Below the pieces are notes generated by a model, which ran no database searches, was not told the origin of the DNA, and saw only the letters and a list, made by a program, of their open reading frames with translations. A DNA stretch of 42,514 bases from a virus: positions 1 to 42,514 of the IMG/VR virus record IMGVR_UViG_3300044825_001500, one strand, 5' to 3'. Positions within the stretch are counted from its first letter, which is position 1. The number at the start of each line of letters is the position of its first letter. The position numbers were made by a program, and so were the translations under genes. Positions 4,466-42,514 of the stretch are shown here, one piece after another.

Positions 4466-5793
4466 TGACCGCGCAACTACCGCTTGCCGTACAGCGTAAT
4501 CTCGCCCGGTGGTATCCGCTAAAGGATCACCCTGTACAGTGTGCGCTTGTTCAAGCGGTGCCTAGTGGCGTTCGGTTCCCATTGGTGCCTGCCGGACGCC
4601 GTAGTGGCAAGACAGAGCGGTTTAAGCGCTTCCTGGTAAAAGAAGCAAACCGCAAACCAGGCATGTATTTTGCCGCTGCCCCAACTTACGGGCAGGCTAA
4701 AAAAATATTCTGGAAGGATTTAAAAGATTTTTGCATTGTTGCTGCTCAACCTAAGAGGCCAAGCGAGTCAGATTTAATTATTTACCTCGCCAATGGCTCT
4801 GAGATTCACGTGATAGGCTTGGATAAGCCAGAGCGTATCGAAGGTATACCGTGGACGGGTGGCGGCATAGACGAATTCGCAGACATCAAGAGCGAGGCAT
4901 GGGAAGCGAACATTCTCCCTGCACTAAACACTGTCAGCCCGCTTGATCCGAATCACCGCGCATGGTGCTGGTTGCTTGGCGTACCTGATGGCCTTAATCA
5001 CTATTACGACCTGTGCGAGAAGGCCAAGGCGGGATTGGATAAAAACTTTCAAGTGTTTCACTGGATGAGCTCAGAAATTCTACCGCCCGAAGATATTGCG
5101 CTCATGAAGTCGATAATGTCAGAGCGCCAATTCAAGCAAGAATGGGAGGCAAGTTTCGAGACTGCTGGCGGGCGCATCTATGACAATTACAGTGAGTTAA
5201 ACGCGACAACCGAAACAATCCTCCCGCACGAGCAATTGCACTGGATGCACGATCAAAACTACACGCCGCTTTCGTCATCCGTGGGGGTGGTGCGTGATGA
5301 GTCGCTGTATCTGCTCGATGAAGTTGTGCTGATTAGCGCGGTATCGAAACAGTCGGCGCTTGAATTCGTTGAAAAGTTTAAATCGCACCAAAACAAAAAA
5401 GTGATGATTTACGGCGATCCATCTGGTCGCGCTGGCGAGAAACATGGCCACATGTCGGACTATAACGACATTGAGCAAGTGTTATCGGAAAACGGCTGGC
5501 AGTTTGAGCGCCGAGTGAAGCTTGCACACCCGGCAATAAAAGATCGTCAAAATGCTGTAAGGGCAAAGATCAAGACAGCAGACGGTAAAGTAAGTTTATT
5601 CATTAACCCTAAAACCGCGCCATGGTCACACAAGGGGCTTGCAACTGTTCAACTGCAAGAGGGCTCAGCATACCAGGAAGACCAAAAGAACAAATACCAG
5701 CACATAACGACCGCGATTGGTTACTGTGTGGATTATTTGTGGCCGGTAAGCGAACAAGCCATGTTCTACGCCCCCCCAATACGCCGAAGATGA
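4465..5793 (+). CDS. terL: Terminase large subunit (TerL), packaging ATPase/nuclease
   Basis: 442 aa. Walker A is GRRSGKT at residues 44-50 and Walker B with the catalytic Glu is GGGIDEFAD at 132-140. The C-terminal RNase H-like nuclease begins at YGDPSGRAGE (about 316-325), whose Asp is the first metal ligand. It cuts concatemeric DNA and drives it through the portal. Genes on both sides overlap it (TAATG upstream, ATGA downstream). The length is normal for compact terminases. The packaging strategy (cos or pac) cannot be read directly, although the terminal redundancy of the contig is compatible with headful packaging. Confidence 0.95.
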   Translation: MTAQLPLAVQRNLARWYPLKDHPVQCALVQAVPSGVRFPLVPAGRRSGKTERFKRFLVKEANRKPGMYFAAAPTYGQAKKIFWKDLKDFCIVAAQPKRPSESDLIIYLANGSEIHVIGLDKPERIEGIPWTGGGIDEFADIKSEAWEANILPALNTVSPLDPNHRAWCWLLGVPDGLNHYYDLCEKAKAGLDKNFQVFHWMSSEILPPEDIALMKSIMSERQFKQEWEASFETAGGRIYDNYSELNATTETILPHEQLHWMHDQNYTPLSSSVGVVRDESLYLLDEVVLISAVSKQSALEFVEKFKSHQNKKVMIYGDPSGRAGEKHGHMSDYNDIEQVLSENGWQFERRVKLAHPAIKDRQNAVRAKIKTADGKVSLFINPKTAPWSHKGLATVQLQEGSAYQEDQKNKYQHITTAIGYCVDYLWPVSEQAMFYAPPIRRR

Positions 5794-5963: not shown

Positions 5964-7087
5964 GCTTCCTAGACGACTTCGAGCGCCATGAACTCTACTT
6001 GCAGCGCCTTGCAACGCAGATGCTCAACTCTAAAATCTACCCGTCATTGGCTGAGGCTTACAAGGCTGCTCGGCTGATTCTGCTTGATGCCGAAAAGATT
6101 GCCTCGCCTTCTGAGCTAAACAAACTTACCGCAGCTATTCGAAAGGCTACCGAAACCACTACCACGAAAGCATGGGAAGAAGTAACGCAAGAGCTGCAAT
6201 CCATGTGCGTTTACGAGGCTGGCTTTTATGCATCGCTGGTTGGCGGCTATGCTGATGCGCGACTAAAAACGCCAGCAGAAAAACAGATCAAGGGATTTAT
6301 CGATAAATCGCTAATGACGTTGCACTCTGGCAACAAAGTAGATTCCGGCTTCTGGGGTGAGTACGTTGGCGCACAGATTTCTAGCGTTGGTAATGCTTAC
6401 GACTCGGCTGTTAAGGCTGGTTATTCCAATGGCGAGACTGTCACACAGATTGCTGGTCGAATTCGTAATGTGACCGAAGGCTTGCTAAAAAACGAGGCTG
6501 AATCTTTGGCGCGCACTGGCGTTCAGCACTATGCAGCCCAAGCACGCAGGGTAATGGCAGAAGCTAATGCAGATGTGATTGCTCGCGAGTTTCCTGTCGT
6601 GACTTTCGACAACCGGACAACGACAATTTGCATGGGTATTGCGTCAAAGTATCCTAAGGGTTGGCCTATTGGCGAGAATCCTGTGGGTCAGCCCCCTTTT
6701 CATTTTGGCTGCCGTACTGCGCTCGTGGCCCTAGTTGCTGGTCAAGACTACCCAGACGGCACCCGCGCAGCAGTAGGCGGCCAAGCTGATGGCGCAACGG
6801 CATTTGAGAAAAAGCAAAACCGCACAGATAAAAAATTCAAATATCGCGGCAAGAAAGACCAAGACGTTTTTAAGGTCGGCCAAATTCCAGCGGGCACAAA
6901 TATCGATACATGGCTGCGCTCACAGCCTGATTGGTATATTCAATCAACGCTTGGGCCCACCAAGGCGAAATTATTCAAGGAAGGCGGCATGCGCTTGTCA
7001 AAATTCACAGACGCCACCCAAAGACCGCTAACAATTGCCGAACTTAGAGAGCTAGATTCCGCAGCTTTCAAGCGCGCAGGCTTGTGA
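5960..7087 (+). CDS. Phage head morphogenesis protein, MuF-like minor capsid protein
   Basis: 375 aa. The Mu gpF-like domain is clear at about residues 180-255: VTFDNRTTTICMGI with Asp-x-Arg-Thr and Cys, then PKGWPIG, then the PPFHFGCRTALVAL end motif. The N-terminal half is helical and probably contacts the portal. MuF proteins are minor head proteins needed for assembly and sometimes injected with DNA. The C-terminal ~90 residues after the domain are charged and carry no obvious toxin or peptidase motif. It overlaps the preceding gene by 4 nt. Unusually it precedes the portal gene. Confidence 0.88.
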   Translation: MSFLDDFERHELYLQRLATQMLNSKIYPSLAEAYKAARLILLDAEKIASPSELNKLTAAIRKATETTTTKAWEEVTQELQSMCVYEAGFYASLVGGYADARLKTPAEKQIKGFIDKSLMTLHSGNKVDSGFWGEYVGAQISSVGNAYDSAVKAGYSNGETVTQIAGRIRNVTEGLLKNEAESLARTGVQHYAAQARRVMAEANADVIAREFPVVTFDNRTTTICMGIASKYPKGWPIGENPVGQPPFHFGCRTALVALVAGQDYPDGTRAAVGGQADGATAFEKKQNRTDKKFKYRGKKDQDVFKVGQIPAGTNIDTWLRSQPDWYIQSTLGPTKAKLFKEGGMRLSKFTDATQRPLTIAELRELDSAAFKRAGL

Positions 7088-7093
7088 TACAAT
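7085..7093 (+). promoter_or_regulatory. Extended -10 promoter before the portal gene
   Basis: TG-A-TACAAT (TG at 7085-7086, -10 at 7088-7093, five of six consensus bases). It begins in the last codon and stop of the minor head gene, about 27 bp before the portal ATG. No convincing -35. Confidence 0.5.
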
Positions 7094-7119
7094 AGCTAAA
7101 ACTTATCAGGGCTTGATTT

Positions 7120-8592
7120 ATGATAACGCCACACAATGAATACACTTTAGCGTTACCGCACCTAAATCGCATCCGTGCCGCTATTGCTGGCGAATCGTTT
7201 GTGAAGCTGCTTGGCCGCACTGCGCTGCCATATCCGAGCGTTATTGATGACAAGTCGCCAGAATCGCGCGAGCTTTACGCTAAATACTTGGCGACTGCTG
7301 AGTTTGACGAATTCCCCAAGAAAACTATGGATTCTCTTGTTGGGCGCATGAAGGTTAGTGAGTCTATTGTCGAGCTACCGGATAAGCTTAGCTACCTTGA
7401 AAACGATTCAGACGGTGACGGATTGTCGTTACGCGGTGCGATGTCAAAATCTATTGAAGATATTTTACAGGCTAAGTGGCGCGTACTTGTGGCCGACTAT
7501 CAAGGTCTTTCTGATGTTGATATTAGCTCGGTATCGGTTGCGGATCTTAAAAAGCTTAACCCGCGCGCAACGATTAAGAGTTACACCCGCGAAAACGTTG
7601 TTCAGTGGCATTTCACGCGAATTAATGGCCGCCTGCAATTAGCGTTTTTGATGCTGCGAGAAATTGGCAGTAGTTTTGATGCCTCGACATTTGAGCACAA
7701 AGACGTTACAAGCTATTTGATTTTGGCGCTTGATGCTAACGGTGATTACTATCAGCAGAAGATTGTTGAGAATGCGGACGGTACAGAGAAAGGCGAACCG
7801 TCATACATGCTAGTTGGTGGTCAACGCCTAAAATGGCTCCCCGTCCAAGTTGCCAGCGATTCCGAACTTCCAAGCGGCTCAATGCCTACAGGTTTCGGCT
7901 ACTTATCACCAATTGTCGACAAGGCCTATCACTCCTACATCGTTAGCGCTGACTACAAAGAAGCCTTGCGCAACCTGTGCCCTACGATCAATACAAGCGG
8001 ATGGACTGAGCAAAAACACGCGCTATTCGTGAAAATGAATAACCGCAACTTTATTGCTACTGGTTCGGGCGCTGTAAACAATTTGCCCGAAGGTGTTACG
8101 ACTGACATCGTGGGCGGAAATACAGGTTTCGAGGGCTATCAGTGGTATTTTGAAAACCACGCAAGCAAGGTGCGCGCTCTCGGCGGATCGTTCAAAGATC
8201 AAACCGAGACACAGAAAACCGCTACAGAGGCAGGCATAGATGCTGCTGAGCAAAACGCCATGCTTGACACCTTGGCGCAGTCTATTGAGGCTGCATATAG
8301 CCGTATTTGTCTCTATTGCGGAATGTTCGAGGGGCTTTGGTCACAAGATGCCATTGAGGAAAACCTCGACCAAATAACTATAGATTTGCCGCGTGATTTC
8401 GCCGCGCAGAAGATTACACCGGACGAGCAGCGCGTCATTATTGAAACCTTTATGGCGGGGCTTTATACCAAAGATCAGGCAATCCAAATGCTTGTGCTTG
8501 GTGGTGCTGCGCCAGAAGACGCAGACAAAATGATTGCGGATGCTGAAAATTCTGGTGGTTCAATAACGGGTAATTTGCCGAACGCGCAATAA
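7120..8592 (+). CDS. Portal protein (DUF4055 type)
   Basis: 490 aa. It resembles the DUF4055 family that serves as portal in many siphophages. The N-terminus has the family-like LPYPS...ELYAKYLATAEFDEFPKKT region (residues about 45-70). A middle segment, QWHFTRINGRLQLAFLMLRE, is followed by GFGYLSPIVDKAYHSY, and the C-terminal helical segment AGIDAAEQNAMLDTLAQSIE resembles the portal stem/crown. It forms the dodecameric channel at one capsid vertex. Neighbours (TerL and MuF upstream, scaffold and capsid downstream) support the role. The Asp/Glu-rich C-terminus is likely disordered. Confidence 0.88.
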   Translation: MITPHNEYTLALPHLNRIRAAIAGESFVKLLGRTALPYPSVIDDKSPESRELYAKYLATAEFDEFPKKTMDSLVGRMKVSESIVELPDKLSYLENDSDGDGLSLRGAMSKSIEDILQAKWRVLVADYQGLSDVDISSVSVADLKKLNPRATIKSYTRENVVQWHFTRINGRLQLAFLMLREIGSSFDASTFEHKDVTSYLILALDANGDYYQQKIVENADGTEKGEPSYMLVGGQRLKWLPVQVASDSELPSGSMPTGFGYLSPIVDKAYHSYIVSADYKEALRNLCPTINTSGWTEQKHALFVKMNNRNFIATGSGAVNNLPEGVTTDIVGGNTGFEGYQWYFENHASKVRALGGSFKDQTETQKTATEAGIDAAEQNAMLDTLAQSIEAAYSRICLYCGMFEGLWSQDAIEENLDQITIDLPRDFAAQKITPDEQRVIIETFMAGLYTKDQAIQMLVLGGAAPEDADKMIADAENSGGSITGNLPNAQ

Positions 8593-36207: not shown

Positions 36208-36444
36208 TTTTGGTTCCTTTGTTATTTAAAAAATCTATTGTGTTTCTATGATTAATAGCTCAATTGGAAATACACGGCCCGTATATTTCCGAGCTATTTT
36301 ATTTCTTGATTTTGTCGCTTAAATCACACGCAACATTTGTAAGTATTTGATTTATAAACAATCGCAAAAAATAAAAACTGGAAATAAAAGTTCTGGGCCG
36401 TTGAATAAACTGTTACATGCTGCCTGTGATAGCGCAGCAGTTAA
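36208..36444. other. Non-coding spacer with a large imperfect palindrome
   Basis: 237 bp, AT-rich, no gene seen. At 36254-36298 a palindrome has arms AATAGCTC/GAGCTATT and GGAAATA/TATTTCC, separated only by a 4-nt bulge. Near 36405-36446 a short hairpin, GCTGC-N10-GCAGC, leads into GTTAATT at the stop of the first cassette gene, which may be a degenerate attC end. It marks the boundary between the phage core and the cassette cluster. Confidence 0.5.
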
Positions 36445-36711
36445 TTAAATGCGGGTAATGCGGGTGTAGCCAGACTCAAATGCATCGGCTGGTGAAAATG
36501 ATTTATAACCATCTTCATACACAACGTAGTAACCGCCAGCTTTAGGATTATGCTTGTCTCGCCAACCGCAAGTAACTTGAATCGGGCTATAGTCCTCTTC
36601 CTCAAAACTCAAAAGCCATTGGTTGCCATCTACAGAAATATCTTTTATTTTTAACGCCCATACTTTTTTGTGGCACTGGTACTTCGGCATTTCACACTGT
36701 ACTTCGCTCAT
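36445..36711 (-). CDS. Phage-type small protein, first unit of the cassette cluster
   Basis: 88 aa. I recognise the sequence type as a widespread phage protein: MPKYQCHKKVWALKIK at residues 8-23, then YSPIQV, KHNPKAGGYYVVYEDGYKSFSPADAF and a C-terminal GYTRI. Function unknown. Its TAA lies in a GTTAATT sequence resembling an attC R' end, and its start is 40 nt from attC1. It therefore occupies a cassette-like unit in the same reversed orientation as the others. Confidence 0.75.
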   Translation of the reverse strand: MSEVQCEMPKYQCHKKVWALKIKDISVDGNQWLLSFEEEDYSPIQVTCGWRDKHNPKAGGYYVVYEDGYKSFSPADAFESGYTRITRI

Positions 36712-36750
36712 GGTAATAATCTCACTTGGTTAAATTAAACCTGCTACAAC

Positions 36751-36826
36751 ATGTAACAAGTCGTTGGTACATCGTTCGCTTTGCTCACTGGATGCGCTTC
36801 GCGCACCGCACAACTCGGCGTTATGC
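36751..36826 (+). repeat. attC-like site 1
   Basis: R'' ATGTAAC (36751-36757), spacer AAGTC, L'' GTTGGT..., central stem-loop TGCGC-TTC-GCGCA, L' GCACAAC, spacer TCGGC, R' GTTATGC (36820-36826). L'' has one extra G after GTT relative to L', the extrahelical base that sets + strand polarity. Nearly identical to sites 3 and 10. Confidence 0.85.
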
Positions 36827-37000
36827 TGCCCTTACATTTCCGGCATATGGTGCATATTCAATTTCAAATAGTGCAACGGTTCCGCAGTGTGGGCACTTTT
36901 TTCTGTGCTCACTGCCTTCACCAGCGTTTCCCCATTCGCATTCATATTGAATCAACTCATCACATTCTTCATTTGGGCAAAACAATTCTACTTCTAACAT
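36821..37000 (-). CDS. Cassette gene: small zinc-ribbon protein
   Basis: 59 aa. Two Cys pairs: FCPNEECDE (C8, C13) and KKCPHCGTVA (C36, C39), a typical zinc ribbon. The TAA lies inside R' of attC1 (GTTATGC), and the ATG overlaps the stop of an upstream 25-codon leader (TAATG). It has its own GGAGG in the shared GGAGGTTTCAAT leader. Role unknown; such ribbons often bind nucleic acid or a host protein. Confidence 0.7.
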   Translation of the reverse strand: MLEVELFCPNEECDELIQYECEWGNAGEGSEHRKKCPHCGTVALFEIEYAPYAGNVRAA

Positions 37001-37077
37001 TATTGAAACCTCCGTTCAACACTACCATCGGGTATTTCTTTCATTCTTTCAATGCAGTCGCCCAACATTAAATTCAA
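37000..37077 (-). pseudogene. Remnant of a DNA methyltransferase N-terminus, coupled leader peptide
   Basis: 25 codons from TTG 37077 (or ATG 37068), with a perfect AGGAGG at 37086-37091. It reads LNLMLGDCIERMKEIPDGSV and then VERRFQ and stop. The LGDCxExMKEIPDGSV stretch is the classic opening of beta-class N6-adenine/N4-cytosine methyltransferases, where a DPPY motif should follow; here it is cut off and joined to the common cassette leader. Its TAA overlaps the next ATG. Confidence 0.65.
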
Positions 37078-37100
37078 AATTAAATCCTCCTAAACCCTAT

Positions 37101-37178
37101 TTATAACAAGGCAATCAAACACCACTCGCCTTGCTCGTTCGACACCGCTTCGCGGTGCGGTTTATCGCTGCGTTATGT
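37101..37178 (+). repeat. attC-like site 2
   Basis: R'' TTATAAC (37101-37107) ... central CACCGC-TTCG-CGGTG stem ... R' GTTATGT (37172-37178). The arms pair as GCAAT[C]AAAC against GCGATAAAC with an extra C on the left arm, giving + polarity. Different in sequence from sites 1/3/10 but the same architecture. Confidence 0.85.
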
Positions 37179-37181
37179 TCA

Positions 37182-37343
37182 TTAAGGTTTCCAGCACTGA
37201 ATACAAAAAACTATTTTCTTTTTGAATTTCATTGCATCTTTTCGAGTTCTTGCCGTGGTTTTGTGGCCGCACTTTAAATACAGCTTCCAATGACCATCCG
37301 GCCAGTCCTTTTCGTATTTCTCAACCTCTACATAGCCAAGCAT
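37182..37343 (-). CDS. Cassette gene: small Cys-containing protein
   Basis: 53 aa from ATG 37343 in the leader GATGGAGGTTTCAATG. It has KCGHK and a terminal FCIQCWKP, suggesting a zinc knuckle (C-x2-H and C-x2-C), with a basic middle (TARTRKDAMKFKKK). The stop is four bases beyond R' of attC2. An 80-aa frame starting inside attC3 is rejected as its start codon lies in the recombination site. Confidence 0.65.
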   Translation of the reverse strand: MLGYVEVEKYEKDWPDGHWKLYLKCGHKTTARTRKDAMKFKKKIVFCIQCWKP

Positions 37344-37361
37344 TGAAACCTCCATCAATAA

Positions 37362-37439
37362 ATATAACCAGTCGTTGGTACATCGTTCGCTTTGCTCACT
37401 GGACAACGCTTCGCGTTGCCGCACAACTCAACGTTATGA
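37362..37439 (+). repeat. attC-like site 3
   Basis: R'' ATATAAC (37362-37368), CAGTC, GTTGGT... CAACGC-TTC-GCGTTG central stem, GCACAAC, TCAAC, R' GTTATGA (37433-37439). Shares almost its whole body with sites 1 and 10. Confidence 0.85.
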
Positions 37440-37712
37440 CTACCGCAGTTCAGGCTCAACCCAAAGCTGCTCAGCTGTGTATGCTGATTGAATGAGCTTC
37501 GCCATATCTATAATTCCGTAGCCTTCTTCGTGTGTGCCTCTGCATGGGTAAGCAATCACACGCATCACATTTCTAAGCCGCAAATTTTCCGCGTGAAGCT
37601 CAAGAATATCTGCCCGCGCATCCTCAAAAGCAAATTGCTTTGCAGCATCACTTTGGTTTGTGGCCATTGCCTTGGGGTCGCACTTTATCCATTGTTCAAT
37701 TGTTCTTTTCAT
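37440..37712 (-). CDS. Cassette gene: hypothetical helical protein
   Basis: 90 aa, GGAG upstream of ATG 37712. The N-terminal two thirds look helical (SDAAKQFAFEDARADILELHAENLRLRNVM, seen as two helices), followed by CRGTHEEGYGIIDMAKLIQSAYTAEQLW. Resembles small phage accessory proteins. The TAG directly abuts R' of attC3 and the start is 22 nt from attC4, so the gene fills its cassette. Confidence 0.65.
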   Translation of the reverse strand: MKRTIEQWIKCDPKAMATNQSDAAKQFAFEDARADILELHAENLRLRNVMRVIAYPCRGTHEEGYGIIDMAKLIQSAYTAEQLWVEPELR

Positions 37713-37734
37713 GATTCTTTACTCCGGTAGTTGG

Positions 37735-37818
37735 TCATAACAAGGCGTATCATCCGACGCGGCATGAGTGTGCCTTGTATTATTTCCGCAATGGCGCGGC
37801 TGTACATTGGCGTTATGT
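37735..37818 (+). repeat. attC-like site 4
   Basis: R'' TCATAAC (37735-37741), spacer AAGGC ... R' GTTATGT (37812-37818). The body is longer and less palindromic than in sites 1-3, but core sites and spacing are kept. Confidence 0.7.
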
Positions 37819-37974
37819 TTTCAAGCTGGCAAAACATCCAAGCAGCACAATTTTAAAAAGCTCCGGCTTGTCTCGGTGCCAGTTTGTTAATGTTTGCGCG
37901 CTCTGGCCTGTTAGTTGCTGAACTTGAAGCAGGCTTTTTAGTCCTGCCTCTTTTGCTTGTTGGCTAGGTGTCAT
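37813..37974 (-). CDS. Cassette operon gene 5: small HTH protein
   Basis: 53 aa. It matches a small phage DNA-binding family: TPSQQAKEAGLKSLLQVQQL with TGQSAQTLTNWHRDKPELF forms a helix-turn-helix in which NWHRDKPELF is the recognition-helix end. The TAA lies in R' of attC4. The start overlaps the stop of the Lar-like gene (ATGA). As the only DNA-binding protein of this five-gene unit it is a good candidate to act on the paired repeats at 38667-38707. Confidence 0.75.
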   Translation of the reverse strand: MTPSQQAKEAGLKSLLQVQQLTGQSAQTLTNWHRDKPELFKIVLLGCFASLKT

Positions 37975-38147
37975 TTTCTTTTATTCCATCTTGCTACCGC
38001 ATTACTTAAGCTGTTTTCTGGGCCAGTTCTACAGTTGCATTGACTGCACCAAATCTTCCAGCTATTAGACTTTCCATCTGCCGCTGTTGCCTTTTGTTTT
38101 TTTGGATCATTGCACCCGCAAAAAGGGCAGCATAATAATTCAACCAT
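37971..38147 (-). CDS. Cassette operon gene 4: Lar-like restriction alleviation protein
   Basis: 58 aa from ATG 38147 (AGGTGA upstream). Lar family layout: LLCCPFCGC with Cys pair, a short variable loop, WKIWCSQCNCRTG with the second Cys pair, and the typical ending SNAVARWNKR. Lar proteins of Rac prophage and phages modulate type I restriction-modification to protect incoming DNA. Zinc binding by the four Cys is expected. Coupled to the downstream HTH gene by ATGA. Confidence 0.85.
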   Translation of the reverse strand: MVELLCCPFCGCNDPKKQKATAADGKSNSWKIWCSQCNCRTGPENSLSNAVARWNKRK

Positions 38148-38160
38148 ATAAATCACCTAC

Positions 38161-38313
38161 TCACATATCATTAGGGGCTATTTCAGCCTGCTCATATACT
38201 TGAGCCTCAATAAGTTTTTCAGCGGTAGATTTGCTCATTGGCTCCGTTAGTCTCCAGCCGCCACTCTCAATTGTTTCTTGCTGCCAGTATCTAATCCTTA
38301 CAATTTCTGTCAT
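38161..38313 (-). CDS. Cassette operon gene 3: hypothetical protein
   Basis: 50 aa from ATG 38313 (GGAG upstream), overlapping the upstream stop as ATGA. Sequence: strand-rich start (EIVRIRYWQQETIESGGWRL), then a helix (KSTAEKLIEAQVYEQ). No Cys and no membrane segment. Similar short proteins (RYWxxEtxxSGGWR...) occur in phages without known role. Confidence 0.6.
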   Translation of the reverse strand: MTEIVRIRYWQQETIESGGWRLTEPMSKSTAEKLIEAQVYEQAEIAPNDM

Positions 38314-38459
38314 TGCGTAAACTCCAGATATATATCTATGCAAATTCTAGCCGCACAACATTGTGAAAGGCTTTTAATAGCCCTCTCTTTCTCTATTAAA
38401 GAGATTCCATCAGCCTTTAAAGAGGCCTTTACAGCCTCCCATATTTTTTCTTTTCTCAT
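38310..38459 (-). CDS. Cassette operon gene 2: hypothetical helical protein
   Basis: 49 aa, too short to be noticed easily. It overlaps the upstream gene (ATGA) and the downstream gene (ATGA). Mostly helical and basic (RKEKIWEAVKASLKADGISL, EKERAIKSLSQCCAARICID). GGCGG stands before the start. The perfect coupling on both sides supports it. Confidence 0.6.
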   Translation of the reverse strand: MRKEKIWEAVKASLKADGISLIEKERAIKSLSQCCAARICIDIYLEFTQ

Positions 38460-38626
38460 GCCGCCTCCGCTATCATTTTGTCTAACTTTGCAATGTTTGC
38501 GCGAATGTGTGCAATTTCTTCTTTGTTTTGCAAGTCTGCTGAGTAAGAAAGCTCTTTATTCAAAGATTTAACATGTTCTTTTTTTGCTGCTTCAATTTTT
38601 GCTACTTGGTTTTTAGTGATTTGCAT
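38456..38626 (-). CDS. Cassette operon gene 1: small coiled-coil protein
   Basis: 56 aa, GAGG upstream of ATG 38626. Lys/Glu/Ala-rich and probably one or two long helices (ITKNQVAKIEAAKKEHVKSL, EEIAHIRANIAKLDKMIAEA). First gene after the promoter at 38659-38686. Its stop overlaps the next start (ATGA). Confidence 0.65.
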   Translation of the reverse strand: MQITKNQVAKIEAAKKEHVKSLNKELSYSADLQNKEEIAHIRANIAKLDKMIAEAA

Positions 38627-38658
38627 TTTCTTATCCTCGTTTGTGTTTGTGTGTTGTT

Positions 38659-38707
38659 AGTATATCAAACTATTTGAAGGAATCAAGCTTTATTTAAAAC
38701 TATTTGA
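38659..38707 (-). promoter_or_regulatory. Promoter with paired operator-like repeats for the five-gene cassette
   Basis: On the - strand TTGATT (38681-38686), a 16-bp spacer and TATACT (38659-38664), with TG one base upstream of the -10 (extended). The 11-mer AAACTATTTGA occurs twice in direct orientation, 38667-38677 (between -10 and -35) and 38697-38707 (upstream of -35), 30 bp apart, about three helical turns. A repressor bound at both would block the promoter. Confidence 0.7.
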
Positions 38708-38728
38708 GAAATATGGCTTTGTAGCAAA

Positions 38729-38770
38729 ACATAACAAGTCACAGCACCACCGCTGCGCTCAGCGTTATAA
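38729..38770 (+). repeat. attC-like site 5, very short
   Basis: R'' ACATAAC (38729-38735), AAGTC, then only about 22 bp with CAGC/GCTG arms and R' GTTATAA (38764-38770). At 42 bp it is about half the length of the others. It could be a minimal attC or one that has lost its central part. Confidence 0.6.
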
Positions 38771-39130
38771 ACCAAACTCAGCGGCAATTTCATCAAACAT
38801 AACTGCATCGCCGCCACCATCGGTTTTTAATCGCTGAATGCCTTTTGGCATAAACGAAAGCCCTTCACCTTCACCAATAACCCAAATATTTTTCCCTTTC
38901 ATATCTGCAAAGTCATCTACGCCAAGCGCAAGCAAAAGCCGCCTAATAACTTCGCACCCATAAGCTGTTCCAACTCTTTTCTTTTTGTCTTTGTCGTATG
39001 TGTCTAATGCAATACCACCAATGCCCTGACATCCACAATCCTCATAATCTACATAAATCCAAAAGTTAAGAATTCCGCGCTCTTGAATTTCAAGTTTTGC
39101 TTTGCTTATTTTTGCCAATTGTTTGTTCAT
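38765..39130 (-). CDS. Cassette gene: hypothetical protein
   Basis: 121 aa from ATG 39130 (CGGAG upstream), the largest cassette gene. Soluble alpha/beta: helical N-terminus (NKQLAKISKAKLEIQERG), strand FWIYVDYEDCGCQGIGGIAL, helix YGCEVIRRLLLALGVDD, then strand NIWVIGEGEGLSFM. Looks like a globular phage protein of unknown function. The TAA lies in R' of attC5. Confidence 0.7.
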   Translation of the reverse strand: MNKQLAKISKAKLEIQERGILNFWIYVDYEDCGCQGIGGIALDTYDKDKKKRVGTAYGCEVIRRLLLALGVDDFADMKGKNIWVIGEGEGLSFMPKGIQRLKTDGGGDAVMFDEIAAEFGL

Positions 39131-39147
39131 ACTTACTCCGTAGCGGT

Positions 39148-39233
39148 TTATAACAAGTAGCGTCAAAATGACGCGGTTTAAATATCGGTTTTTAACTCTT
39201 ACTCCCAGCGCGCATTTGCGCTAAGCGTTAAGT
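39148..39233 (+). repeat. attC-like site 6
   Basis: R'' TTATAAC (39148-39154) ... R' GTTAAGT (39227-39233). Left arm AGCGT[C]AAAATG pairs with the right arm GCATTTGCGCT, with an extra base on the left, so + polarity again. 86 bp. Confidence 0.8.
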
Positions 39234-39410
39234 GACCGCATTAAATTGCGTTGCAGAAACAACGCCAACCATTCCGGTATCTTTAAATTTTTCGTAAACC
39301 TGATCTATCATTTGTGAAAGAACTTCTTGCGGCTTCATTTCATCTGGCGCATCTGCAATGGAGTGGCCTCGCTTATTGTCGCTTTGCCATGCCATAAAAT
39401 AAGTTTTCAC
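39228..39410 (-). CDS. Cassette gene: hypothetical protein
   Basis: 60 aa from GTG 39410, with GAGG eight bases upstream; a TTG further up would lie inside attC7. Acidic and helical (DAPDEMKPQEVLSQMIDQVYEKFKD), starting with KTYFMAWQSDN and ending VGVVSATQFNAV. The TAA is within R' of attC6. Not recognised. Confidence 0.6.
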   Translation of the reverse strand: MKTYFMAWQSDNKRGHSIADAPDEMKPQEVLSQMIDQVYEKFKDTGMVGVVSATQFNAVT

Positions 39411-39422
39411 TTCGCTAACCTC

Positions 39423-39507
39423 ACTTAACAAGTCGCTCAAAGGCGACGGAATTAGAATTTATTACTAGCGCAGCCTTGGTGTGCCGCGCTTTAGCTCAAC
39501 GTTACAT
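39423..39507 (+). repeat. attC-like site 7
   Basis: R'' ACTTAAC (39423-39429), AAGTC, L'' GCTCAAAG..., L' ...CTTTAGC, TCAAC, R' GTTACAT (39501-39507). L'' GCT[C]AAAG against GCTAAAG shows the extrahelical C at the same place as in the aadA-type attC. One of the clearest polarity indicators. Confidence 0.88.
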
Positions 39508-39744
39508 TCATTTAGGTTTTGGCGCTTTTGCAAATTGCATAAAAATTGAAATAAGCATTGCGGCGCCATTACAAAACCCATAAAAAACTAAACCCAAGAA
39601 TAGTTTTGCTTTCAACTCTAGCTCTTTATCTGCATCGCTAAAGTCAATAAAAAGTAGGTAGCTAATAATCCAGCCAAATAACAGCGCTGCTATTATTGCC
39701 ACAATAACAGCCAGCAAGCCCTTGGTAATTCGTAGAAATAGCAT
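39508..39744 (-). CDS. Cassette gene: small membrane protein
   Basis: 78 aa from ATG 39744 in the leader GATGGAGGCTTCAATG. Two hydrophobic segments: LLAVIVAIIAALLFGWIISYLLF and LFLGLVFYGFCNGAAMLISIFM (each visible as a helix), joined by an acidic loop, with a Lys/Pro tail. The TGA begins directly after R' of attC7. Candidates include exclusion or holin-like functions, unproven. Confidence 0.65.
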   Translation of the reverse strand: MLFLRITKGLLAVIVAIIAALLFGWIISYLLFIDFSDADKELELKAKLFLGLVFYGFCNGAAMLISIFMQFAKAPKPK

Positions 39745-39762
39745 TGAAGCCTCCATCAATAA

Positions 39763-39846
39763 ATGTAACCAGTCACCCAAAGCGACTGCCTAAGCATTTG
39801 TGTTTTTATCACTTGTTAAACGCAGCGCTTTAGCTCAACGTTAAAT
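39763..39846 (+). repeat. attC-like site 8
   Basis: R'' ATGTAAC (39763-39769), CAGTC, left arm ACC[C]AAAGCG[A]CTGC against right arm GCAGCGCTTTAGC, TCAAC, R' GTTAAAT (39840-39846). Two extra bases on the left arm, seven bases apart, reproduce the two extrahelical bases known from functional attC sites. Confidence 0.88.
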
Positions 39847-40008
39847 TGCCCTCATAAAAACTTCACAGCCAGCTTGCAAAGGTTGTCTTTTCATCGGCAC
39901 CCTTATTTTGTCCGCGTGCCTTTTATAGCGCACTGTGCAAACGTTCTTTTTGCTGTCAAAGTCAAAGCAGTTTTTACAAATCCTGCGTATATCAATATCT
40001 TTGTCCAT
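39841..40008 (-). CDS. Cassette gene: small Cys-rich basic protein
   Basis: 55 aa, too short to be noticed easily. Cys pattern ICKNCFDF ... NVCTV ... AGCEVF suggests one zinc site; the middle is basic (RYKRHADKIRVPMKRQ). The TAA overlaps R' of attC8, and the start is 14 nt from attC9. Resembles phage Cys-rich proteins of unknown role. Confidence 0.65.
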   Translation of the reverse strand: MDKDIDIRRICKNCFDFDSKKNVCTVRYKRHADKIRVPMKRQPLQAGCEVFMRAI

Positions 40009-40022
40009 CGCAAGTATCCGTT

Positions 40023-40105
40023 ATTTAACAAGTCAATATTACGGACGGGTCTAGAGTCGTCCAATTTTTATTTATTCCCAGCCGCCGCAAATCTCGGCGT
40101 TACAT
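40023..40105 (+). repeat. attC-like site 9
   Basis: R'' ATTTAAC (40023-40029), AAGTC ... TCGGC, R' GTTACAT (40099-40105). The central region includes GACGGGTCTAGAGTCGTC, an imperfect hairpin. 83 bp. Confidence 0.75.
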
Positions 40106-40108
40106 TCA

Positions 40109-40375
40109 CTAGTCCGGCACAATTTCAAGCTCTGTCATGTAGCAGAATGCAATCGTGTCGTTTTCAAAATGTACTTGGTTCAAGCCATCGCCAGCACCAA
40201 CAATATAGCCTTTGGTGCCATTTGGTATTTTATCACTTAACGTTTTAGCCATTTTTACATTTGTAATTTCTATCTCAGGTTCAAGATATTTATAGCCACA
40301 AATTTCATCGCAAAATTTAAGGCCATTACAATCAAATTCGGCTTCAACTTCGTTGCAGTGTGCGCAGTCAGTCAT
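40109..40375 (-). CDS. Cassette gene: zinc-finger protein
   Basis: 88 aa. The N-terminal Cys cluster C-A-H-C-N ... FDCNGLKFCDEICGYKY looks like an FCS/MYND-type treble-clef zinc finger. The C-terminal half is a small beta-barrel-like part (KGYIVGAGDGLNQVHFENDT). The TAG is three bases beyond R' of attC9. AGGTG precedes the ATG closely. Possibly protein- or nucleic-acid-binding. Confidence 0.7.
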   Translation of the reverse strand: MTDCAHCNEVEAEFDCNGLKFCDEICGYKYLEPEIEITNVKMAKTLSDKIPNGTKGYIVGAGDGLNQVHFENDTIAFCYMTELEIVPD

Positions 40376-40406
40376 ACATCACCTTTTAAATTAGTTTGCT
40401 ATGTAA

Positions 40407-40482
40407 ATGTAACCAGTCGTTTGTACATCGTTCGCTTTGCTCACTGGACACGCTGCGTGTGCCGCACAACTCGGCGTTAAGT
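40407..40482 (+). repeat. attC-like site 10
   Basis: R'' ATGTAAC (40407-40413), CAGTC, GTTTGT... central CACGC-TGC-GTGTG-like stem, GCACAAC, TCGGC, R' GTTAAGT (40476-40482). Almost identical in body to sites 1 and 3. Confidence 0.85.
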
Positions 40483-40674
40483 AGGCGCCCCATCATTTGA
40501 GCTTTTACTGTACTGCTCGTAACAATCTCTTGGCATTCCTATTGAGCCAATCACCGCGTTGCAACTATCGCAACGGTAAGCGTAGCCACTCTGGTGGTCA
40601 AACATTGGAACACCGCCGCAGGGAAGCGCCTTTAGTTGGTCGGGAACAATTGTCCCGTCAAATGCTCTTGCCAT
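40477..40674 (-). CDS. Cassette gene: small zinc-binding-type protein
   Basis: 65 aa, CGGAG upstream of ATG 40674. Cys pattern LPCGG ... YRCDSCNAVIGSIG ... RDCYEQY, similar to Lar-like and other phage zinc proteins (first Cys, Cys-x2-Cys and a last Cys). The TAA is in R' of attC10. An anti-restriction or other host-takeover role is possible but not shown. Confidence 0.7.
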   Translation of the reverse strand: MARAFDGTIVPDQLKALPCGGVPMFDHQSGYAYRCDSCNAVIGSIGMPRDCYEQYSKSSNDGAPT

Positions 40675-40712
40675 TTTTAACTCCGTAGTAAGTTTAATTG
40701 CGTCATGGTTTT

Positions 40713-40760
40713 ACTTAACAAGTCGCGCCAGCACCGCACGTTCCGTGCTCGACGCTTTGC
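40713..40760 (+). repeat. attC half-site at the right edge of the cluster (site 11)
   Basis: R'' ACTTAAC (40713-40719), spacer AAGTC and an L''-like GCGCCAGCACC follow the pattern, but I cannot find matching L' and R' in the next 100 bp. The sequence here is coding for the C-terminus of the adjacent gene, whose TAA lies in R''. Probably a one-sided junction between the cluster and phage core DNA. Confidence 0.5.
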
Positions 40761-41140
40761 GCGGCTGCGCTCGCCGGTTTGCCAAACTTCCAAGCGAAAC
40801 CGTGCAACACGTTACGTGTGCCAATCCAGTTGGCAGCGGTGGGGAGTTCACCCTTGTCACGATACAGCTTGAGTACTGCGGTCACGTAAAGACCTCCAGG
40901 CAAACTTTGGTCGGGGGTTTGAAACCACGCTAAGTTAGCCGGCAACCACTTGCGTTCTATCGGGCGGGCGAAGTGTGCGAACTCAATATCGGCCTGCTGC
41001 TTAGGGTTGATGTTGTCTGAGTACGGCACGGCCTTTGACGCTATCCAACGCGGGGTGAACGGCAGCACGAAGAACACGATGCGGGTTGGTAGCGTTACCG
41101 CCATGATGAGAAGTGCTTTAAGAAAATCTGACATAGTCAT
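40715..41140 (-). CDS. DUF7338-like phage membrane-associated protein
   Basis: 141 aa (or from the ATG two codons later). N-terminal hydrophobic segment (FLKALLIMAVTLPTRIVFFVL), then features of a common phage family: LAWFQTPDQSLPGG, AANWIGTRNVLHGFAWKFGKP. The last ~20 residues (SAAAQSVEHGTCGAGATC) are encoded by attC-like DNA, so the original C-terminus may have been replaced on cluster insertion. By eye higher G+C than its neighbours. Start overlaps the upstream stop (ATGA). Confidence 0.7.
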   Translation of the reverse strand: MTMSDFLKALLIMAVTLPTRIVFFVLPFTPRWIASKAVPYSDNINPKQQADIEFAHFARPIERKWLPANLAWFQTPDQSLPGGLYVTAVLKLYRDKGELPTAANWIGTRNVLHGFAWKFGKPASAAAQSVEHGTCGAGATC

Positions 41141-42079: not shown

Positions 42080-42328
42080 TCACCCCCTACCAATCGCCGA
42101 GAAGTACAAAAACGCTGCAAACAATACGCCGATAAAGGCAAGGCCACTAACTACAGTAAACCCAATTATCTCGGCTTTTGTTATCTCAACGCACCACTCG
42201 CGACCTAGAATACCACCTTGCTCGTCATGCAGTTCCCATGTTTGGTCGTTGTCAAAAGCTGGCTTAATTTCGCCGGTCAAGGTGTTTTTAACCCAGCAGT
42301 TCGCCCAATTTGGTAATTTTTGATTCAT
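42080..42328 (-). CDS. Hypothetical single-pass membrane protein
   Basis: 82 aa. Soluble N-terminus (NWANCWVKNTLTGEIKPAF), then GREWCVEITKAE and one transmembrane helix near the C-terminus (IGFTVVSGLAFIGVLFAAFLY). Expressed from the promoter at 55-82 across the joint. Not recognised. Confidence 0.65.
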   Translation of the reverse strand: MNQKLPNWANCWVKNTLTGEIKPAFDNDQTWELHDEQGGILGREWCVEITKAEIIGFTVVSGLAFIGVLFAAFLYFSAIGRG

Positions 42329-42514
42329 TGCTCACCGCCATATTTGTTTAAAAATTTATTTTGTAATTGGAATACTAGCACAAAAACCTATATTTGCAAC
42401 AGTTTGGCAACATTTATTTTTCTTAATTAAAATACGTCAACAATATTGTCACCAAGCGAAAGCCTGCACTCAAAAAGCGCACAGGAATAATCGACAGGTC
42501 TGGAAGTATCATAG
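42318..42514. repeat. Terminal direct repeat, right copy
   Basis: 197 bp equal to positions 1-196 with one extra T. See the left copy. It includes the first codons of the gene ending at 42328. Confidence 0.95.

Follow-up and report, generated by a model that had tools for sequence, protein, structure and literature searches.

A tailed phage genome carries an integrase-less array of attC sites (a CALIN) in which every cassette gene runs against the polarity of the attC sites, and this array belongs to a class of reversed arrays common to many phages and prophages. The DNA analyzed (the window) is the whole of IMG/VR virus record IMGVR_UViG_3300044825_001500, 42,514 nt in length. We consider it likely that such arrays draw on a phage-specific pool of reverse-gene cassettes, which would be mobilized in trans by the host integron integrase (IntI) and transcribed by phage operons.

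An integrase-less attC array in a tailed phage

The record contains terminase, portal, head, and tape-measure genes, identifying a tailed phage. A terminal repeat of ∼197 bp (positions 1-196 and 42318-42514, near-identical with one single-base indel) indicates that the record, though classed as linear, is probably a complete phage genome. Searches with PF00589 and TIGR02249 gave no match across the whole record, bearing out the prediction that the phage has no integron integrase. With 11 attC sites within 4.0 kb and no integron integrase in the record, the locus is a CALIN; it lacks the intI gene of a complete integron, and its genes are not co-directional with their attC sites as in canonical cassettes. 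The original prediction had placed the locus at 36445-40760, and its limits are here corrected to a G|TT at 36412 and about 40783. The features of the array are as follows.

36412..36416, plus strand: left array junction G|TTAC, a non-attC site and the apparent start of the first unit, from sequence
36445..36711, minus strand: cassette gene 1, 88 aa, phrog_11049; cassette relative in G020 (52%) and coliphage DNA matches
36749..36827, plus strand: attC 1 (R1 60.6 bits; R2 33.8 bits)
36821..37000, minus strand: cassette gene 2, 59 aa, zinc-ribbon-like
37003..37073, minus strand: DNA methyltransferase start remnant (LMLGDCIERMKEIPDGSV), adjoining attC 2, read from sequence
37099..37179, plus strand: attC 2 (R1 and R2)
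37182..37343, minus strand: cassette gene 3, 53 aa
37360..37440, plus strand: attC 3 (R1 and R2)
37440..37712, minus strand: cassette gene 4, 90 aa
37733..37819, plus strand: attC 4 (R1)
37813..37974, minus strand: cassette gene, 53 aa, regulator-like, phrog_409
37971..38147, minus strand: cassette gene, 58 aa, Lar-like restriction alleviation (phrog_599, 2e-7)
38161..38626, minus strand: three small ORFs of a five-gene unit (38161-38313, 38310-38459, 38456-38626)
38727..38771, plus strand: attC 5, short, 45 nt (R1 27 bits; R2 28 bits)
38765..39130, minus strand: cassette gene, 121 aa, phrog_30930; block in L015 93% identical
39146..39234, plus strand: attC 6 (R1 66.1 bits)
39228..39395, minus strand: cassette gene, about 55 aa, approximate start
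39421..39508, plus strand: attC 7 (R1 and R2)
39508..39744, minus strand: cassette gene, 78 aa, membrane-like
39761..39847, plus strand: attC 8 (R1)
39841..40008, minus strand: cassette gene, 55 aa
40021..40106, plus strand: attC 9 (R1 and R2)
40109..40375, minus strand: cassette gene, 88 aa
40405..40483, plus strand: attC 10 (R1 and R2)
40477..40674, minus strand: cassette gene, 65 aa, zinc-finger-like by eye
40711..40783, plus strand: attC 11, complete, with its R' (GTTTGCC) inside the phage's own gene (R1 35.1 bits; R2 21.6 bits)
40715..41140, minus strand: DUF7338 gene, the 3' end of which now enters attC 11 (PF24027, 30.6 bits)

The 11 sites at 36749-40783 were located by an attC model (R1), all on the plus strand. 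Because the training set of R1 consisted in part of the window sites themselves, an independent model (R2) was built from bacterial-genome arrays only, restricted to the arms, and run with filters off. R2 recovered 8 of the 11 sites, all on the plus strand, with E values from 2e-6 to 0.05, and it also detects phage attC sites. One extra match (37826-37883) is a misplaced version of the neighboring site, and the rest of the 42.5 kb gave no further R2 match at E ≤ 1. The attC-model search proposed as a check on the original prediction thus returned matches, all of the expected polarity. The sites have the R''-L''-L'-R' hairpin with TAAC...GTTA cores that defines an attC. Ten complete sites and a half-site had been claimed; there are 11 sites, and the supposed half-site at 40717 is complete, with an arm (TCGCG-C-CAGC against GCTG-CGC) and a diverged R' (GTTTGCC). 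The site at 38733 is a short form of 45 nt. This short site (attC 5), the methyltransferase remnant, and the diverged last R' are signs of decay in the window array.

The polarity of the sites was established from the pairing of their arms. When an extra base is placed in the 5' (L'') arm of the plus strand, the key position next to L'' pairs in 30 of 33 aligned sites; the figure drops to 8 of 33 if no extra base is allowed and to 12 of 33 if it is placed in the 3' arm. CG, AT, TA, and GC pairs are all represented at this position among the 33 sites, and shuffled and slid structures score far below the real attC structure. Covariation therefore assigns the additional base to the 5' arm, so that the attC top strand is the plus strand and the genes lie on the minus strand, as had been predicted. 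All window cassette genes are on the minus strand, against attC polarity and co-directional with the leftward genes of the phage, and on both points the original prediction was right. The automatic caller scored two window units (36827-37099 and the five-gene unit 37819-38727) as forward; both read as reversed by eye.

Each attC lies just upstream of a gene, and the stop codon of that gene falls within or beside the R' core of the neighboring attC. We sought -35 and -10 boxes by eye in the attC sites and leaders as evidence for a promoter in each cassette and found none convincing. The sequence TTGCTATGTAAATGTAAC is conserved in the leaders of L007, L013, and L015, where it lies between R'' and the ribosome-binding site; a similar stretch occurs in the window at 40373-40418, and TTGCTATGTAAATGTAAC adjoins differing attC bodies. 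The position of attC directly 5' of each ribosome-binding site would suit hairpins kept as RNA punctuation of the operon (processing, termination, or translation control) and not for recombination, and a possible terminator role of attC hairpins in integrons has been discussed (PMC8876359). We regard this explanation as very improbable, since the attC bodies vary by unit while the G|TT of R' is kept, and no RNA-specific feature was seen. An Rfam scan of the window gave no match at gathering scores.

The DUF7338 gene is a possible target of the first insertion. When 36412 is joined to 40778, the frame of the gene at 40715-41140 stays open for ∼37 further codons, which is suggestive only as support for the 36412 junction. 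Joining the flanks at these positions did not raise the Pfam score of DUF7338, and no relatives of this gene that could prove the insertion target were found in viral contigs or phages. Contig L008, tried as an empty-site control, is without the DUF7338 region and was unusable.

Reversed arrays in phages and normal integrons in bacteria

Further arrays were recruited with two attC patterns that are blind to gene orientation. These retrieved 18 viral contigs, all with R1 matches, one of which (the contig of L007) was also retrieved through its helicase. A genome attC pattern led to a prophage in a Cellvibrionaceae MAG; a first genome pattern, covering one attC type, retrieved nothing. Candidates L004-L006, from a loop-only pattern, were chance matches in which no arrays were found.

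Orientation was called from the longest ORF between neighboring attC sites. In 27 arrays on 22 environmental phage or prophage contigs, 106 units are reversed and 7 are forward, and among units where one strand clearly wins the count is 76 reversed to 1 forward. Stops in or adjoining R' had been predicted for the window; across all arrays, the TTA of R' is itself the TAA stop codon in 53 of the 106 reversed genes. All 14 contigs mapped for flanking ORFs (nearest two per side) have a large ORF directed against attC on at least one side. One contig, G005, carries two arrays of opposite polarity, both of them reversed. As recruitment used two short-loop attC patterns, the reversal rule is shown for the short-loop class. 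A longer-loop pattern found two viral contigs, L152, in which most genes read as reversed on inspection, and L151, which carries a single forward gene.

Several other features of these contigs were observed. The forward gene of L151 accompanies a single attC of host length (5638-5772) downstream of an integrase-like ORF. L152 has an open frame at 6524-7237 with a start resembling that of the methyltransferase remnant at 37003-37073, and it too adjoins an attC. The ORF at 6722-7372 in L007 contains many short Cys/Ser repeats (CSYC, CSDC) in succession, and the gene at 5934-6255 in L007 is outside the detected array and has a counterpart in G014 that sits between attC sites.

The Cellvibrionaceae MAG provides an internal control, because it contains normal integrons with IntI as well as the prophage with a reversed array. 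R1 attC sites on four of its contigs, two with an integrase, are co-directional with genes. Across 18 bacterial loci from the family of the MAG, 6 of them containing an integron integrase, the same model and caller gave 109 forward and 22 reversed units (93 to 9 for clear units). The difference in orientation between phage and bacterial clear units has a Fisher p of about 5e-39, a value that is only a guide because the units share ancestry and are not fully independent. Median attC length is 87 nt in the phages versus 135 nt in the bacteria. Small genes are hard to call and seven phage units score forward, which might suggest that attC polarity or gene strand has been misread. However, the normal orientation that the same model and caller give for the MAG's own bacterial loci and the gene-family matches on the strand opposite attC make the chance of such an artifact vanishingly small.

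The hosts of the reversed-array phages are probably Cellvibrionaceae and relatives; this assignment is based on the prophage in one MAG and on small contigs of genome G048 that are possibly binned phage. An IntI match over the cut-off is present in 16 of the 21 genomes of the MAG's genus. In the Cellvibrionaceae MAG itself (G021), a partial integron integrase match (C196:35674-36225) lies beside a complete one.

The cassette genes that have a family match belong to phage families, and many match nothing. In the window, one such family is Lar-like restriction alleviation (37971..38147; PF14354 at 28.5 bits, just under the cut-off of 28.6), and the methyltransferase remnant has methyltransferase DNA matches in Aeromonas phages. 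Other arrays encode an HNH endonuclease, RNA ligase, DnaQ-type exonuclease, RNase H, HMC-glucosyltransferase, and a repressor. The original prediction held that the phage gathers host cassettes via the host integrase and keeps those in the orientation that it can transcribe; on this reading host cassettes would be captured at random and filtered for orientation by expression. A source exists, since 22 of 131 bacterial-locus units (∼17%), most of them short ORFs, score as reversed, and attC sites of host length occur inside phage arrays in L152 and in contig C205 of G048. Such an orientation-filtered draw should nevertheless resemble host cassettes, whereas the matched phage cassette genes are phage-type, the attC lengths differ (87 versus 135 nt), and the only connection seen between phage cassette proteins and the bacterial loci is one weak match (37% identity). 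The phage cassettes thus look like a separate pool, and capture from the host is unsupported and, in our judgment, improbable.

Exchange of units between phages

Comparison of cassette content, as the original prediction had proposed, shows that phages exchange units starting at R' and that array content turns over at fixed places. Blocks common to different phages begin at R', among them a 160-bp block containing the gene at 37813..37974 that is common to the window and G020. In G011 and G017, homologous flanks enclose different arrays. A 459-bp unit common to G005 and G008, 97% identical between them, extends from G|TT to the next GCGTTA and carries its own attC on the start side of the gene; in G005 the G|TT at which it begins lies in sequence that is not an attC. 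The units shared by G005 and G007 and by G012 and G013 likewise include the start-side attC, and in all three pairs the unit has the G|TT of R' at both ends, as expected of a cassette. At the stop-side attC, no pair is clearly above the background of attC pairs (95th percentile 74%; highest pair 76%). That the start-side attC travels and the stop-side attC does not is as predicted for attC-directed exchange with reversed genes.

These observations suggest how the pool might operate. A host integron integrase acting in trans would recombine the folded bottom strand of attC, with insertion of units at the G|TT of R' and now and then at a secondary G|TT in the phage. The direction of insertion is set by attC polarity, so that an array lying antisense to a phage operon would express only reverse-gene cassettes, and phages with a common layout may thereby form a closed exchange pool. 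The promoter of the phage operon would read the genes, which may serve small accessory and counter-defence functions.

The majority of shared blocks terminate at R'', leaving both attC bodies different; the 93% identical gene block of the window and L015 runs from R' to R'' in this way, with attC bodies that differ on both sides. Simple exchange by IntI does not predict such blocks. They would be explained if the attC repeats were homology linkers only, co-infecting phages swapping blocks without IntI through homologous recombination, of phage or host, at the conserved R and L boxes. The absence of an integrase from nearly all contigs and an exonuclease VIII-like gene in the window phage also favor this possibility. 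It seems rather unlikely, however, given that R' bounds the three shared units on either side, with the whole start-side attC included, and that the G005 copy of the G005/G008 unit starts at a G|TT outside attC sequence; a conserved covarying hairpin with an extra base would moreover be unneeded. Mobilization by IntI remains the preferred reading. Its broader form, in which phages that infect integron-bearing bacteria keep a pool of reverse-gene, short-attC cassettes for themselves, largely separate from the bacterial pool, and parasitize host IntI to exchange counter-defence and accessory genes combinatorially, we judge to be evenly balanced between right and wrong.

Comparison with known systems

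Phage CALINs are already known. Qi et al. (2023; PMC9892861) list 17 CALINs in phage records, including TJE1, PH101, and P12002L, which like the window have attC clusters without an integrase. IntI1 recombined five of six phage attC sites tested there, bottom strands better than top, and the layout of TJE1 and PH101 is called typical. In our scan, TJE1 appears to be forward, unlike the window. In PH101 we found four attC sites on the plus strand and the surrounding annotated CDS on the minus strand, and two units also hold unannotated plus-strand ORFs by eye. We found no account of such a systematic reversal in the parts of that report covered or in the literature searched (subscription papers and preprints being outside its scope), and as far as we have found the class is new.

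The chromosomal integrons of Cellvibrionaceae have the same attC arm types as the phage arrays, and IntI is present in the family. They differ in having longer attC sites (135 nt), mostly forward genes, and, in several loci, an integrase in cis. In descriptions of integron cassettes, the gene lies forward of attC. Reverse-gene cassettes, such as those of toxin-antitoxin systems, do occur in chromosomal integrons, with the gene antisense to attC as in the window. The parDE3 cassette of V. cholerae, for example, is reported to have a promoter in the opposite orientation (PMC11014356). Such cassettes are nevertheless a minority with their own promoters among forward genes, whereas in the class described here whole arrays are reversed.

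The reversed class, with the TTA core often serving as a stop codon and blocks swapping between attC bodies, offers concrete material on how cassettes form, and it suggests that a host recombination system acting in trans can serve phages in the shuffling of counter-defence genes. Phage accessory gene loci are exchanged as modules at conserved boundary sequences. The small genes described here are likewise swapped as modules, and their boundaries are integron attC sites.
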